A DNA stretch of 41,965 nt from Bacteroidales bacterium (GTDB lineage: Bacteria > Bacteroidota > Bacteroidia > Bacteroidales > F082), in NCBI GenBank assembly GCA_018399335.1, contig JAGYNM010000008.1, positions 1 through 41,965 on the forward strand. The letters are read 5' to 3'. The position numbers were made by a program, and so were the translations under genes. The stretch's first letter is position 1. The number at the start of each line of letters is the position of its first letter. Shown piece after piece: positions 3,977 to 35,667 of the stretch. Below the pieces are notes generated by a model. That model ran no database searches, had not been told where the DNA came from, and was given only the letters and a program-made list of their open reading frames with translations.

Positions 3977-4023
3977 TCTAAAACAAAAGAAGCATCAACA
4001 GGCTTTGTGCTGCTGATGCTTCT
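3977..4023 (-). terminator. Intrinsic terminator after the DUF4625 gene
   Basis: The arms at 3988-4001 and 4010-4023 pair over 14 bases with one mismatch and an 8-base loop. On the minus strand the hairpin is followed by TTTTGTTTTAG. It lies 20 bases after the DUF4625 stop and before the ftsK promoter, separating the two units. Confidence 0.75.
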
Positions 4024-4043: not shown

Positions 4044-4901
4044 TTATTGAATCACAATGGGAAAGCGCTGGCTAAATGCAGTGTTTCCACTTTCATCGAC
4101 CGCTTTCACGATCACATAAAACTCTCCTCTTGACCATGTTACAGTTCTGGGAGGAACATTATTATCCTGTGTTGCTCCAACAATAATTGATGCATTGAAA
4201 TCAAAACTATTTTGTTCTGCCACCTGTTCGTTGGCATTCAACATAATTACAAAGGCATCTGTGGTGTTTACCATATCTTCCGTTGAAGTGCTGCGCATAA
4301 CAGCAACCAGCAATTCACTGAGGTGTTTGTTATCTGAAACACTTCCGGCAATTTTTATAGTATCGGCCCTGATATAAGCCTCATTTTCTTCGGGAGTAAA
4401 GCTGAAGGATATTTCAGGTGCAGTTTCGTCTGCTGGTTCCACAATAATTATATCGTGTGCCACAAATTCCTCATTACCAGCCTTATCAGTGCAATAAACC
4501 AAAAAATGATAATCGCCGGGCATCGTTGGAACGCCATCAACCTCTTCGGGAATAACAATTTCGGAATGACTCACGGTTTCATTAGTTGATCCTTCGGGTA
4601 ATGACCAGCTTTTTTGGTAACTCCAGGCTCCATTATCTGAAGTGCTTTTGTGATCATGACCTTCGCCCGGATGAATATCAATTTTGTAGCTACCCAATTC
4701 TTTATCATCTGAAAAGACAGCACCAAAAGCAATGGCATCACCTGGCATAAATTCAGTTTCATTCGCCGGCGAAGTCAAATTAATCTGTGGTTTTGTGGTA
4801 TCCTTTTCGTCAGCAGGATCATCCTCATCTTTTGAGCAAGAGGCAAATGCAACTGCAGCTGACAAAAACAGCATCAAAGCAAAAAAACGATTGTTTCTCA
4901 T
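4044..4901 (-). CDS. DUF4625 domain lipoprotein
   Basis: 285 residues. The N-terminus is a lipoprotein signal (AVAFASC, lipid Cys21) followed by an acidic linker, so it is probably surface or periplasmic and anchored in a membrane. Two Ig-like beta domains follow, starting near DTTKPQINLTSPAN (about 38) and DETAPEISFSFTP (about 158). The first has the DUF4625 hallmark IDIHPGEGHDHKS, a His/Glu-rich turn that could bind metal (inference). The gene follows a Fur-family regulator and a TonB receptor with a 128-base gap and is closed by a terminator. This suggests a helper role in metal acquisition, for instance holding substrate near the receptor. The DUF4625 call rests on recognised sequence pattern; the function is not established. 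Confidence 0.8.
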   Translation of the reverse strand: MRNNRFFALMLFLSAAVAFASCSKDEDDPADEKDTTKPQINLTSPANETEFMPGDAIAFGAVFSDDKELGSYKIDIHPGEGHDHKSTSDNGAWSYQKSWSLPEGSTNETVSHSEIVIPEEVDGVPTMPGDYHFLVYCTDKAGNEEFVAHDIIIVEPADETAPEISFSFTPEENEAYIRADTIKIAGSVSDNKHLSELLVAVMRSTSTEDMVNTTDAFVIMLNANEQVAEQNSFDFNASIIVGATQDNNVPPRTVTWSRGEFYVIVKAVDESGNTAFSQRFPIVIQ

Positions 4902-5029: not shown

Positions 5030-7411
5030 TTAACGTTTAACTTTAGCATTTATTGGAACAGACAATGAAAGCTGAAGGTTAGTGCCGGCTTCGGGCAGCT
5101 GAAGTTGCCTGTAAAAACTCAGGTGATTGAAATATTTCGCGTTGAAAACATTTTGCCACTGCAGATCAATTCCCAGTGGAAAATATGCGGTGAGGATTTT
5201 AGTTGAAAAACTAATATTAAACAAATTATAACCCGGCGTAACTAGTTCGTTGCGCGCTACCAGTTCTTGTTTGGCAACACCAACCATTTCGAAACGCAAT
5301 TGTGTTTGATGCAACTTGCGCCAATAAGCTGGCAATTTGTGATTTATTCCAATTACAAGCTTAAATGGCGGTGTGAAAGGAATGGGATAAACACCATCAG
5401 TAGTATACACATATTCTGTTTGTAAGTCCCAATCGAACAGGCGGCTAAGTTGCATTCCGAATTCCATTTCGGCGCCAAACCGATAAGCCTCCGACTGCAC
5501 ATAACGATAGATCTGGCCTGCATCAGCTTCCTGAACTTCGGTTCCATCCGGCATTAGATAACTTCCGGTAGGATTCAGGTAAATAAAATTGGGAAAATAG
5601 GCTGCAAACGGACTAATCGAAAAATACCAATTCTGTTTTTGCCATTGCAGCGCCAGATCGGCCTGATAGGCATACTCCGAAGTGATTGCTGTGTCGCCTA
5701 ATTCATAGCGAAACGACCCATGATGAATTCCGTTCGAACCCAGCTCGGCAGTTACAGGCATCCGAAAACTCTTGGCCAGATTCAGCTTGATCAACAGACT
5801 ATTATCCGGATCAAAAACAGCGCCTAATCCCCAGCTCAGGTCATTAAAATCTCCCTTGTAATCTGGTGATTTAACTGTTGAAGTAAAAGGAGAAAAATAG
5901 TAATCTAATTTCAAATTTCCCCAATCATAACGCAAGCCCCAATTAAATCTCCACTTTTCGCTCAGTTTCCAGTCGTGCACATAAAATGCTCCTACGCCCG
6001 TTTTTTGATACGCAGGAATTAAAAACATATATCCACCAATTCGATTTGCCTGATAAACCGTACTCAAACCAAAATCCAGGCGATGATCTGAAACCTGCCG
6101 GCGGTAAACGACATTCCCCAACCAGGTATCCAAAACCCATTCCAGCTCAAGATCAGGGTCGATTTCGGGAGCTTGCTGGCCGGGAAAATGGCTGTGAAAC
6201 AACGACCATTCCTGTCTGTGGTTGGACTGATATCCGCCGTCGACAAGTAACTTTTGTGATTCATTTAAAACAAAAATTCCGTTGACACTAAATTTAAAAT
6301 GATTTACCTGTTGAAAAGGAAGCTCGATATTCCTAAGCGAACCATCATCCTGAAGTTTTGCTGCGCTTGGCAGTCCATGAGCACCAGGAAAAAAGCCAGT
6401 CTTGGCAAAAACATTACTGGCCGAAAGCGAGAGTTTTCCCCAATCATCAATCCATCCAGCAGTGAAGTAAGCGCTTTGTTCCACACCCGCTGTGTTTTTA
6501 AGTCTTCTGTTAGGAATTTCAAAGCGGTATCTGTTGTAATAAAAACTATCGGCCGGAACACGATAATCTGAAAAACGCGTTTGGGTAAAGCGTGCATAAG
6601 TAAAAAAATTTTCAGCGCGATACCGGCTTCGAACCGAGATTCCGAGCAAATCATTAACCGATCTGAAAATTGTATTCACTTCTGTTTCTATACTTCCCGG
6701 CGATGCTAAAGCGTGTGGTTTTATGCGAACTACACCTCCTACGGCATCAGAACCATAAATTAAACTGGAAGGTCCCTTGATAATTTCAATTTGCTCCACA
6801 CCAAACTGATCCACTTCGAGGCCATGATCAGCGCCCCATTGCTGACCTTCTACCTTGATATTATTTTCGGTAACCACAACCCTGTTAAAGGAAAGACCGC
6901 GAATCATCGGTTTCGAAAGCCCTTGTCCTATCGTCATTGCCTGAACACCAGGCAGTTTTTCCAAACTTGTCATCAGGCTGCTTCCCCTGTTTTCTCTAAG
7001 GTATTTTTCTCCTGCTCCAACAACAGCCTGAGGGGTTCTCTTGGCTTCTTCCCGCCGGTCAGAAAGTACGACAACTTCATCCAGACCAAGATTTTCGGGC
7101 TCCATGATGACTGTCACTTTTGTGTTTTTCTGATCCACAACAACGCGATAGGGATGGATACATCGATAACCAATAAAACTCACATGCAATCTGTACTGGC
7201 CGCTTGCCAAACCTGTGAAATAGAAATACCCACTGCTATCCGAAAGGGTTTGTTCTGATTTTTCTGCAAGGAAGATATGTGCACCCTCCATTGGTTCGTT
7301 GCGATCGTTGAGCACAAGACCTGTGAGTTGATAGTCATCATCCTGCAACTGACTATAACCCGATTGCACAGCAAAAACCAACAAAAGAAGTAAGATTAAT
7401 TTACTCTGCAT
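5030..7411 (-). CDS. TonB-dependent outer-membrane receptor, probably metal-ion uptake
   Basis: 793 residues from the ATG at 7411; an ATG three codons earlier (7420) is equally possible. After a signal peptide (ending near GYSQ) comes a carboxypeptidase-regulatory-like domain (about 27-95: LTGLVLNDRNEPMEGAHIF). A plug follows (about 115-230, with KLPGVQAMTIGQGLSKPMIRG and IEIIKGPSSLIYGSDAVGGVV), then a 22-strand type barrel to the end. The segment ELGSNGIHHGSFRYELGD resembles ZnuD-like metal receptors, and FHSHFPGQ adds two more His in a predicted outer loop. The gene overlaps the end of the Fur-family regulator gene by 16 bases and precedes a DUF4625 lipoprotein. Substrate (zinc or iron) is inferred from context. 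Confidence 0.88.
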   Translation of the reverse strand: MQSKLILLLLLVFAVQSGYSQLQDDDYQLTGLVLNDRNEPMEGAHIFLAEKSEQTLSDSSGYFYFTGLASGQYRLHVSFIGYRCIHPYRVVVDQKNTKVTVIMEPENLGLDEVVVLSDRREEAKRTPQAVVGAGEKYLRENRGSSLMTSLEKLPGVQAMTIGQGLSKPMIRGLSFNRVVVTENNIKVEGQQWGADHGLEVDQFGVEQIEIIKGPSSLIYGSDAVGGVVRIKPHALASPGSIETEVNTIFRSVNDLLGISVRSRYRAENFFTYARFTQTRFSDYRVPADSFYYNRYRFEIPNRRLKNTAGVEQSAYFTAGWIDDWGKLSLSASNVFAKTGFFPGAHGLPSAAKLQDDGSLRNIELPFQQVNHFKFSVNGIFVLNESQKLLVDGGYQSNHRQEWSLFHSHFPGQQAPEIDPDLELEWVLDTWLGNVVYRRQVSDHRLDFGLSTVYQANRIGGYMFLIPAYQKTGVGAFYVHDWKLSEKWRFNWGLRYDWGNLKLDYYFSPFTSTVKSPDYKGDFNDLSWGLGAVFDPDNSLLIKLNLAKSFRMPVTAELGSNGIHHGSFRYELGDTAITSEYAYQADLALQWQKQNWYFSISPFAAYFPNFIYLNPTGSYLMPDGTEVQEADAGQIYRYVQSEAYRFGAEMEFGMQLSRLFDWDLQTEYVYTTDGVYPIPFTPPFKLVIGINHKLPAYWRKLHQTQLRFEMVGVAKQELVARNELVTPGYNLFNISFSTKILTAYFPLGIDLQWQNVFNAKYFNHLSFYRQLQLPEAGTNLQLSLSVPINAKVKR

Positions 7412-7815
7412 TGTGCACAAAACCCATTAAACATGATCTCAAAACTATTTACCTGAAAATCCTTTGGAATGTTAAGTAAATCACGTGACACAGCCCCCAA
7501 ACAAAAAACCTTATCGCATTTATCGCAATGAAAATGAGCATGCCCTGGCTGCTGTTCCAGTTGCAGATGCGGCTGATTAAGCGCATACTTCACCTCATTT
7601 TTTTGCACAACTACCTGATGAATAAGACTGTTCTCCAAAAAAGTACGCAGCGTACGAAACAAGGTTGCCCTATCGTAATCAAAATGCAATTTGTCCTTGA
7701 TCTCTTGTTCAGACAAAGCAGTTGAAGCCTGATATAATGCTTCCAATACGTCGATTCTACAGGGTGTTTTCTGTAGTTTTTTTTCCTCAAGTATAGTTTT
7801 AACAATATTTTGCAC
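7396..7815 (-). CDS. Fur-family metal-responsive repressor
   Basis: 139 residues starting at a GTG (7813-7815); no ATG exists between the upstream in-frame stop and the conserved first helix, so the GTG start is favoured. The N-terminal winged helix reads LQKTPCRIDVLEALYQ and YDRATLFRTLRTFLE (the family's TVYRTL helix). The C-terminal part has HAHFHCDKCDKVFCLG and the final CAQC, two CxxC pairs forming the structural zinc site. Family members bind DNA when loaded with Fe, Zn, Mn or Ni. Co-transcription with a ZnuD-like receptor suggests a zinc or iron regulator, and a palindrome over its own promoter suggests autoregulation. Which metal is sensed cannot be decided from sequence. The gene end overlaps the receptor start. 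Confidence 0.9.
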   Translation of the reverse strand: MQNIVKTILEEKKLQKTPCRIDVLEALYQASTALSEQEIKDKLHFDYDRATLFRTLRTFLENSLIHQVVVQKNEVKYALNQPHLQLEQQPGHAHFHCDKCDKVFCLGAVSRDLLNIPKDFQVNSFEIMFNGFCAQCRVN

Positions 7816-7824
7816 AAAAGTATT

Positions 7825-7845
7825 ATTTGCAACGAGGTTGCAAAT
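7825..7845 (-). promoter_or_regulatory. Perfect palindrome, probable Fur-family operator
   Basis: Arms ATTTGCAAC (7825-7833) and GTTGCAAAT (7837-7845) are exact reverse complements around a 3-base centre GAG. It sits 10 bases before the GTG start of the Fur-family gene and overlaps the predicted -7 element, where a repressor would block transcription. Confidence 0.68.
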
Positions 7846-7848
7846 TTA
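7841..7848 (-). promoter_or_regulatory. Candidate -7 element for the Fur/TonB/DUF4625 unit
   Basis: Minus strand reads TAAATTTG (TAnnTTTG consensus). The predicted transcription start falls near 7834, about 19 bases before the GTG start. The right arm of the palindrome covers five of its eight bases. No clear -33 TTG is present, which would suit a regulated promoter. Confidence 0.5.
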
Positions 7849-7854
7849 ATTGAA

Positions 7855-7887
7855 TTTCTAAAAATACCGACTAAAAAGCCGGTATTT
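7855..7887 (-). terminator. Intrinsic terminator after the cyclophilin gene
   Basis: AAATACCG (7862-7869) and CGGTATTT (7880-7887) pair over 8 bases with a 10-base loop. On the minus strand the stem is followed by a short T-rich run. It separates the cyclophilin gene from the Fur promoter. Confidence 0.6.
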
Positions 7888-7903: not shown

Positions 7904-8341
7904 TTATTCTTCTATAACACTGAGCTTGATCATTTTATCTCCCTGTCGAATCATATCAACCACTTCGATATTTTCAATCACCTTACCAAAAACTGTATGA
8001 TTACGATCCAGATGAGCAGTATTTTCGCGACTGTGACAGATAAAAAACTGTGATCCGCCAGTATTTCTTCCAGCGTGAGCCATGGACAAAACACCGCGAT
8101 CATGTCTCTGTTTTTCCCCGTCAAGTTCACAATTTATAGCATAGCCCGGGCCTCCCGTGCCATCGCCTTTGGGACAACCGCCCTGCACAACAAAATTGGG
8201 TATTACCCTATGGAAAGTAAGACCATCATAAAAGCCTTTCTGGATTAAACTGATAAAATTCTCAACAGTTTTAGGTGCATCATCATCATACAACTCTACA
8301 ATCATGGTACCCTTTTCGGTTTCAATTTTTGCTTTCTTCAT
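7904..8341 (-). CDS. Peptidyl-prolyl cis-trans isomerase, cyclophilin type
   Basis: 145 residues, the compact bacterial cyclophilin size. It has no signal peptide, so it is probably cytoplasmic. Family motifs are [13 protein letters not shown] (residues 43-55, with the catalytic Arg45), GSQFFI and [13 protein letters not shown]. Cyclophilins catalyse cis-trans isomerisation of the bond before proline during folding. The loop [14 protein letters not shown] matches the short single-domain PpiB-like group. The gene lies 41 bases downstream of lepB and may be the last gene of the parA-to-lepB unit, closed by a terminator at 7855-7887. Confidence 0.95.
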
Positions 8342-15697: not shown

Positions 15698-15737
15698 GGG
15701 TTGGGAAGCTGACTTCCCAACCCTTTATTTTTTTTAC
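15698..15737 (+). terminator. Strong intrinsic terminator after the E2 gene
   Basis: GGGTTGGGAAG (15698-15708) and CTTCCCAACCC (15713-15723) pair over 11 bases with a 4-base loop, followed by TTTATTTTTTTT. It lies about 20 bases after the E2 stop and just before the exonuclease start at 15740. Confidence 0.95.
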
Positions 15738-33846: not shown

Positions 33847-35667
33847 ATGAAAAAAGGATTTCTACCGTTAAGTTTATTATTGACACTCACACTCTTAGCC
33901 GGAACAAGTCTTTTAGCCGGAACGCCGGATAATGAGGTTAAAGCTACACCTCAAAATGATCAGCAACCCACTGCTGAATCGTATTTAAAAAGCTTAAAAG
34001 CTAACCAGCATACAGGCACTATTGATGCCAGGCAAGTGTTGGAAGCCATGTATCAGACAAAGAATTTAGCTTCGAACCGCGATCGCGAAACATTAAACTG
34101 GACTAATCTTGGCCCGGATAATTTTGGCGGGCAGGTAAAAGCTATTTTGTTCGACAACAGAGCTGGTAATGAGGGTACAATTCTAATTGGTGCCAGTGGT
34201 GGCGGAATTTGGAAGTCAGTCAATAATGGTATTACCTGGAGCCGTGTAAGTACTAACAACATGATGGTTAGTAGTATGGTGCAGGCAGCTAACGGCGACA
34301 TTTACGTTGGAACAGGAGATGGCTTTAATGCGCAGGATTACAATGGCTTAAGCGATTTCGAATACACCTCAGGATTAATTGGCCAGGGCGTATATAAATC
34401 GACTGACGGCGAAAACTTTGTTCAGCTTGAAAGCACCTTACCCGCTATTAATGATAACACTGCAGCCTGGGCTTTTGTGAACGAACTGGCCGTGAATGAA
34501 TCAGGTCATGTTTTTGCCGCTACAAATGCCGGACTGATGGTTTCTACTGATGGTGGTGCCAGCTGGACAGTAGCTTCTGATGAAGAAGGCACTGAACTCA
34601 GCATGAATGCTACTGATGTGAAAGTTGGAAGCGATGGAATTGTTGCAGCAAGTATTGATAACAAATGCTATATCTCCAAACTTGGAGATATCAATGCTTT
34701 TATGAATCGCTCGACTGGTGACTCTGTTTCACTTCCATTCGAAAATGTTTCACGTCTCGAATTAGCCGTTGCACCCTCCGATCCTAACAAATTATATGCA
34801 AGTGCAGTAACTAGTTTTGGAGTTCATGCCGGTATATTTGCTTCCTCTGATAAAGGTGATACTTGGGAAGTTATTTTACCAGCAACTAACTCCATTGATA
34901 TTTATCAAACATATGGTAATTACAACAATAATATTACTGTATTTCCTAACGATCCTGACCGGATTTTAATAAATGCCGTAAACCTTTGGCAAGGAAGAAG
35001 AATTAATGAAGAAGGATTATATTCATGGGATACCAAATCCAATGGTTTTGGTTCAGATTTCAATCCATTTTACGTTCATATCGGACAACATATAACAGCC
35101 TTTAATCCCAACGCCAGCAATCAAATTTATATTGGTACTGATGGCGGTATTTTTAAAGGAAGTATTTCTGGCGAAGAAATAACCTTTGAAAGTTCAAACC
35201 GTAACTTTATCACATCCAGATTCTATTCCGTTGCACCAACAGGACAGGAAAACAGAGTTGTTGGAGGTTCACAGGACAATGGAACCATTTATGTTTCATC
35301 AACCGGAAATACGGCTAAAGAAGGCGAAATCATTTACACCGCCTCTATCCCGAATCATGGCGGCTCAGCAGTAGTTTCAACAATTGACCCCAACGCTGCT
35401 GTTGTGAGCTCAATTGCAGGAAGCATGGATAGAACTGAGGATATGGGATTTACCTTCTCTACACAGTTTTTGGGTTCGCTCATGGGTAATACTCAGGTCT
35501 TTAATACCCCAATCAAGCTATGGGAAAGCTATGACAATGAAAATAGCAGGGATTCAGTTACTTATGCTAAAAAGAATTATGCTGCCGGAGATGTATTAAA
35601 AGTAAAAAGCGGCAAAAACAACGATCATCCTTTTATTACACCTGCCTGCAGCTTTGCAAAATGGTGA
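33847..35667 (+). CDS. Secreted BNR-repeat beta-propeller protein, N-terminal frame
   Basis: The first 606 codons of a larger gene that probably runs to 36752. A signal peptide (1-24) is followed by propeller repeats with Asp-box/BNR-type motifs: SVNNGITWSRVS, STDGGASWTVAS and SSDKGDTWEVI. The frame ends in an artificial tail: reading is normal up to about GKNNDHPF, after which the real protein (LPAALQNGDSIRVKDIV) continues in another frame from 35642. BNR propellers of this size are sortilin/glycosidase-like secreted proteins; no substrate can be inferred. The gene has a long leader and a good promoter. The C-terminal sorting domain encoded near 36505 shows it is type IX cargo. Confidence 0.85.
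   Translation: MKKGFLPLSLLLTLTLLAGTSLLAGTPDNEVKATPQNDQQPTAESYLKSLKANQHTGTIDARQVLEAMYQTKNLASNRDRETLNWTNLGPDNFGGQVKAILFDNRAGNEGTILIGASGGGIWKSVNNGITWSRVSTNNMMVSSMVQAANGDIYVGTGDGFNAQDYNGLSDFEYTSGLIGQGVYKSTDGENFVQLESTLPAINDNTAAWAFVNELAVNESGHVFAATNAGLMVSTDGGASWTVASDEEGTELSMNATDVKVGSDGIVAASIDNKCYISKLGDINAFMNRSTGDSVSLPFENVSRLELAVAPSDPNKLYASAVTSFGVHAGIFASSDKGDTWEVILPATNSIDIYQTYGNYNNNITVFPNDPDRILINAVNLWQGRRINEEGLYSWDTKSNGFGSDFNPFYVHIGQHITAFNPNASNQIYIGTDGGIFKGSISGEEITFESSNRNFITSRFYSVAPTGQENRVVGGSQDNGTIYVSSTGNTAKEGEIIYTASIPNHGGSAVVSTIDPNAAVVSSIAGSMDRTEDMGFTFSTQFLGSLMGNTQVFNTPIKLWESYDNENSRDSVTYAKKNYAAGDVLKVKSGKNNDHPFITPACSFAKW

Follow-up and report, generated by a model that had tools for sequence, protein, structure and literature searches.

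A Conserved Palindromic Box as the Probable Operator of a Zur-Like Zinc-Uptake Operon in the Bacteroidales

A 21-base palindrome in the genome of a Bacteroidales bacterium is very probably the operator of a zinc-responsive, autoregulated Zur-like repressor, which is encoded directly behind it and would control a zinc-uptake operon. Judged from the sequences of related bacteria, the same box appears to govern metal export genes when it occupies another position on the promoter. This wider import/export pattern of the box is the new part of the work, beyond the palindrome itself. The features of the operon are collected in Table 1; the window is the whole stretch of 41,965 nucleotides that was analyzed.

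Table 1. Positions of the putative operator, its promoter element, the genes behind it and the flanking hairpins in the window
Feature	Position	Strand	Basis or remark
Palindrome (candidate operator)	7825-7845	minus	21 bases, exact repeat
-7 promoter element, TAAATTTG (Bacteroidota TAnnTTTG)	7841-7848	minus	Sequence; last bases common to operator
Fur-family regulator, Zur-like	7396-7815	minus	139 aa, GTG start; PF01475, 34.9 bits (cut-off 23.1)
TonB-dependent outer-membrane receptor	5030-7420	minus	PF00593 and PF07715
DUF4625 lipoprotein	4044-4901	minus	PF15418, 121.1 bits (cut-off 27); two DUF4625 stretches
Terminator-like hairpin behind the operon	3988-4023	minus	Terminator scan
Hairpin with T's behind it, between cyclophilin gene and operon promoter	7862-7887	minus	Inverted repeat; absent from the terminator scan list

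The palindrome reads ATTTGCAAC-GAG-GTTGCAAAT with 0 mismatches, and the two exact 9-base arms around GAG that the first-pass annotation had placed directly upstream of the Fur-family gene are thus confirmed. The span of 7825-7848 given there holds as far as 7845, but the last three bases (7846-7848) are the TAA of the -7 element. The proposed overlap with this element, which runs from 7848 to 7841, was also found. According to an excerpt of PMC7366714, TAnnTTTG is the -7 consensus of the Bacteroidota. The part of the palindrome that is conserved is a 15-base core box, TGCAAC-N3-GTTGCA (7828-7842), with a 7-1-7 arrangement; 12 nt separate its end from the GTG start codon at 7815, where the regulator gene begins. 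Since the core box starts inside TAnnTTTG, a dimer bound to it should shut the promoter off. Viewed just as a repeat, the palindrome is unremarkable and only weakly significant. The window contains one perfect repeat with 9-base arms and a 3-base loop, where 30 shuffles give 0.3 on average; with all loops of 0-8 bases there are 8 overlapping matches against 2.8 in the shuffles, and the palindrome pattern with up to 3 mismatches gives 1 match against 0.05 expected. The weight of the palindrome comes from the conservation of the core box and not from the repeat alone.

Homologues of the regulator, defined as matches at an E value of 0.001 or better and including distant Fur relatives, are present in 81 of the 149 genomes of the order and in 48 of the 100 genomes of the family. 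The two closest orthologues (L077 and L078, from the same genus and 90% and 71% identical, respectively) carry the identical 21 bases at the same position. Among the 30 best loci of the order, the window included, the core box appears with at most 1 mismatch within 150 nt of the gene in 23, and 17 of these boxes are exact; the seven loci without a core box nearby all fall on the export side of the regulator tree or at its base. Of the 19 loci of the family, 17 have the core box no more than 50 nt upstream, one has it downstream, and one lacks it. All three exact core boxes of a genome from the same genus (G156) adjoin its three regulator homologues, and four of the five in G169 adjoin its four homologues. 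A held-out set of 80 named loci was fetched by protein similarity, and 63 of these have sequences absent from the earlier loci. In 79 of the 80 (41 exact) and in 62 of the 63 new ones (30 exact), the 200 nt ahead of the regulator contain the core box with at most 1 mismatch, compared with 3 of 3088 equal-sized control windows of the named loci. Genera represented among the named loci include Marinifilum, Labilibaculum, Draconibacterium, Mariniphaga, Maribellus, Saccharicrinis, Alkaliflexus and one Cyclobacterium. Comparison of the upstream regions therefore upholds the expectation that the palindrome is conserved before orthologous Fur-family genes. The -7 element is often conserved with it: TAnnTTTG starts 6 bases before the core box, with the TG common to both, in 23 of 27 boxes upstream of fur, and the overlap is present in 54 and absent in 25 of the 79 box-bearing named loci.

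Across the 149 genomes of the order the exact core box occurs at 69 places, against 35 for an everted control built from the same half-sites and 5 for a control read backwards; many of the 69 are within genes that have no metal link and seem to be chance matches, but were kept in the counts. With the 51 best regulator matches used, 26 of the 69 exact boxes and none of the 35 everted sites are located within 150 nt of a regulator homologue. The genome-wide excess over the everted control is only twofold, yet the placing is non-random. The pairing of regulator and box is deduced from such sequence comparisons, and the box could in principle belong to another regulator and stand beside fur through operon layout alone. 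This is very unlikely, because the box accompanies homologues of this protein in many genera, keeps to the clade-typical side of fur with one side change on the tree, and occurs in divergent layouts elsewhere in the phylum.

The first-pass annotation had also described terminators on both sides of the unit. Hairpins are present on both sides, but their status as terminators is that of a consensus match: the terminator scan lists 4 sites in the window against 4.0 in shuffles, and terminator-like sites are therefore consensus matches only. The upstream hairpin lies between the cyclophilin gene (7904-8341) and the operon promoter. Further strong perfect hairpins were noted in the window at 15698-15723 and 34670-34691. 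The palindrome itself is listed by the scan as terminator-like on the minus strand, as would be expected if it were the stem of an RNA hairpin or terminator and no protein site. That explanation is extremely improbable. The commonest variant of the box has TGCATC for TGCAAC with the other side unchanged, which breaks the pairing, and the tail AATACTTTTG is weak. Because the palindrome overlaps the -7 element, most of one arm should moreover stay untranscribed, given the predicted start site.

The protein encoded directly behind the box scores above the Pfam cut-off of the Fur superfamily (PF01475). Its predicted structure (pLDDT 87.8) has the winged-helix and dimerization domains of the Fur fold, and the model gives Z values of 14.6 for Fur (9a4a) and 14.3 for E. 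coli Zur (4mtd) over 134-135 residues, 13.8 for Xanthomonas Zur (7dh8), and 12.1-12.9 for PerR. Fur ties with Zur and PerR is close, and therefore the fold does not name the metal. The NCBIfam models are similarly distant: the enterobacterial Zur model (PRK11639) gives 28.4 bits against a cut-off of 167, and the PerR model gives 52.4 bits, above the score for Zur and far below its own cut-off of 180. In view of the score below the Zur cut-off and the tie between folds, the regulator is named Zur-like. Two features looked for in a Zur are nonetheless present by sequence. The first is the two CxxC pairs of a putative structural zinc site, C97xxC100 and C133xxC136. All 24 proteins of one alignment have both pairs without exception; C136 shows slight variation among a wider set of 28 proteins. 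The second is the palindromic box overlapping a putative zinc-uptake promoter. PgFur of Porphyromonas gingivalis, another Fur-family protein of the Bacteroidota, likewise has two CxxC motifs, which in PgFur bind structural zinc, and is described in an excerpt of PMC6613475 as having no His-rich motifs, whereas the window protein retains HAHFHC.

The reading frame of the TonB receptor overlaps the 3' end of the regulator gene. The receptor carries a CarboxypepD_reg-type domain, and its best NCBIfam match is the ZnuD zinc receptor (NF038289), but at 114.1 bits against a cut-off of 950 it is no member of that family by this model. In the DUF4625 lipoprotein, C22 (the lipoprotein cysteine), H77 and H132 are invariant among 15 aligned sequences, the window included, and the protein may be a zinc-binding surface partner of the receptor. 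In relatives (L098, L109 and L160-L178) a small protein of about 110-165 aa is encoded between fur and the TonB gene. Its N terminus has a hydrophobic stretch and its C terminus a RAPP motif; it also carries His/Cys motifs (often CPICDY), and it is labelled in 45 of the 80 named loci; the one such protein tested has no Pfam match, and the window operon has no open frame for it between fur and the TonB gene.

Behind the box at the 80 named loci, the BLAST labels are TonB at 66, DUF4625 at 53, COG0523 at 8 and RND at 0. All six proteins chosen for a test proved to be ZIP, and one of them (L159) belongs to the same subclade as the window regulator. The BLAST label "MFP" at L283 is false, and the protein is ZIP by Pfam. 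ZnuA, ATPase and permease genes (ZnuABC) stand behind the box in L104 and, by label, also in L154 and L195, and GTP cyclohydrolase I (FolE) occurs with COG0523 in L098. The same gene classes are reported for Zur regulons (PMC2770081 and PMC6103462, in excerpt), and zupT, yciC and folE2 are listed in the Zur-regulon table of PMC6103462. TonB/DUF4625, ZIP, ZnuABC, COG0523 and FolE form a zinc-limitation set, from which a Zur-like zinc-uptake operon was concluded; with the metal read from gene content, zinc appears much likelier than iron. In L268, L274 and L105, the box stands before two COG0523 genes, an ABC ATPase gene and then another gene, of about 450 aa, possibly an unrecognized zinc-linked ABC system.

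The same operator and regulator might instead respond to iron, manganese or nickel, as a Fur-, Mur- or Nur-like uptake repressor. The tie between Fur and Zur structures would allow this, and the ZnuA-like binding protein of L104 leans the same way, its best NCBIfam match being a manganese model (96 bits, against 88-89 for the zinc models); for the binding protein of L154 the zinc models lead. A metal other than zinc is unlikely, since the ZIP, COG0523 and FolE genes behind the box belong to Zur regulons in the table of PMC6103462 and the sister clade described below adjoins ZntA- and CzcA-like exporters. The genome has, in addition, a second Fur-family gene (G000:C171:40291-40650), which scores 79.5 bits for PF01475, above the window regulator, and is taken to be the iron regulator.

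In the mechanism that we infer for a zinc-responsive repressor, the metal-loaded dimer would bind the 15-base 7-1-7 box when zinc is sufficient and would cover the latter half of the -7 element together with the likely start site, a position typical of a repressor. The bound dimer would keep the regulator gene itself and the genes for the TonB receptor and the DUF4625 lipoprotein from being transcribed. As zinc runs short, it would leave the box and the operon would be transcribed, and the receptor and the lipoprotein, in the role proposed for the latter, would carry zinc across the outer membrane. The conserved box, the -7 overlap and the zinc-type genes thus argue for the self-repressed metal-uptake unit with a readable operator that had been suggested from the window alone.

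In the own genome, whose assembly is 77% complete, the window holds the one exact core box. There are 16 further places with at most 2 mismatches (14 inside called reading frames and 2 between them), none with a -7 element at either fixed position, and looser import- and export-type promoter patterns return the window site or nothing. As no second site of the import or export type turned up, the regulator seems in this genome to be a switch for one operon. The suggestion that the motif could be used to find other targets accordingly failed in the own genome, beyond the window, but succeeded in relatives.

A tree of 63 homologues and the other Fur of the genome separates uptake-linked from efflux-linked proteins with 2 label changes, and proteins with the box before fur from those with the box after fur with 1 change; it was built by a quick method without bootstrap, has several long branches, includes two proteins labelled by hand (L109_9 and L109_19), and classes L171 with uptake only through a neighboring receptor fragment. 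D69, G70, C79 and C85 are among the invariant residues of the 18 aligned proteins of the sister clade. The genes of this clade adjoin CusA/CzcA-type RND pumps, cadmium-type (ZntA-like) P-ATPases and CDF proteins, and the box is usually just behind fur, in front of the next operon. In the 30 export-side rows, 9 of which were picked because an exporter follows and one of which (L191) has no labelled exporter, TAnnTTTG starts 27 bases after the start of the box in 23 and 28 bases after it in 2 (25 of 30); the same spacing was found in 0 of the 5 other rows of that output. The comparison was extended to 87 non-redundant exact boxes, many from loci fetched for their fur homologue and therefore, together with two caveats, no unbiased draw: TAnnTTTG lies at offset -6 or +27/28 in 42 of the 53 with a metal-linked gene nearby (for 2 of these 53, which fall within SusC-like TonB genes, chance is the probable explanation) and in 0 of the 34 without one. 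In six of the 42 both signals are present, the TAA being at the same time the stop codon of fur.

A gene-blind search of 395 genomes of the phylum found 16 import-type places, one of them in the window, and 4 export-type places, with 0 for the reversed controls of both. All 4 export-type places precede exporters, namely ZntA-like ATPases (3) and a DUF6660-RND unit (1). At the 15 import-type places outside the window, the 1.5 kb that follow hold no gene for an RND, P-type ATPase or CDF protein, and 5 of the 15 adjoin a Fur-family gene. The next gene is MerC at 4 (three by Pfam), TonB at 2, and DUF4625, COG0523 and a pyridine-nucleotide oxidoreductase at 1 each. At 4 others it encodes a small His/Cys-rich protein, each with an ABC ATPase (direction uncertain) further on; an unknown lipoprotein follows at L296, and L307 has no gene in that direction. 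In L294, L299, L304, L305 and L306 the box stands between a divergent Fur-family gene and a MerC or oxidoreductase gene; FolE follows in L304, and the MerC of L306 was assigned by its likeness to that of L305. It may be speculated that MerC is a zinc-import partner at these loci.

The export-side box lies at a fixed distance, where the -33 element should be. This position would fit a zinc-loaded activator of export, and it would also fit a low-zinc repressor. Both arrangements have a counterpart: the Zur of Streptomyces activates export from a box 8 nt upstream of -35 (PMC5472717, excerpt), and that of Corynebacterium glutamicum has a site that overlaps exporter promoters in their -35 region and acts as a repressor when zinc is low (PMC6103462, excerpt). 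The latter uses a different, 10-1-10 direct repeat for export, whereas here the same palindrome would serve import and export. A joint reading, put forward tentatively as one possibility, is a two-armed zinc system of the Bacteroidota with one 15-base box and two sister Fur-family clades, in which the position on the promoter would set the outcome. On the -7 element the box would block import; 33 bases further upstream, at the expected -33 element, the zinc-loaded dimer would switch on zinc/cadmium export by CzcA-type RND, ZntA-like ATPase and CDF proteins. In Caulobacter crescentus, Zur is a repressor of zinc TonB receptors and at the same time an activator of export by RND and P-type ATPase systems (PMC4176598, excerpt). 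There one Zur does both, whereas here one clade goes with import and its sister clade with export, and one box is found at two fixed promoter positions.

With the Zur regulons of E. coli, Bacillus, Streptomyces, Xanthomonas and Caulobacter, the system has in common the predicted Fur fold with two CxxC pairs, the box over the promoter, and the putative control of ZnuABC, TonB receptors, ZIP and COG0523 (PMC6103462, excerpt). The 15-base 7-1-7 palindromic form of the box is also that of S. coelicolor Zur (PMC5472717, excerpt). It differs in the sequence of the box, the DUF4625 operon partner, the two sister regulator clades, and the distance of the regulator from the NCBIfam Zur model. Searches of a library of papers found no published account of the core box or of a Bacteroidota Zur regulon, and "bacteroid" occurs 0 times in the main text of each of the Zur reviews compared. 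The operator, regulator and promoter geometry described here offer a testable zinc system for a phylum that these reviews do not name. They would link the uncharacterized DUF4625 family with zinc uptake, and DUF6769 and DUF6660 with the export of metals, and the fixed 27-base spacing at exporter promoters raises the question of whether a Fur-type dimer can replace the -33 contact. In G024:C3:54000-90000 (L096 and L097), five regulator homologues are clustered in some 27 kb, with RND and CDF export genes around them, and this region is a metal-resistance island of repeated fur-box-exporter units.
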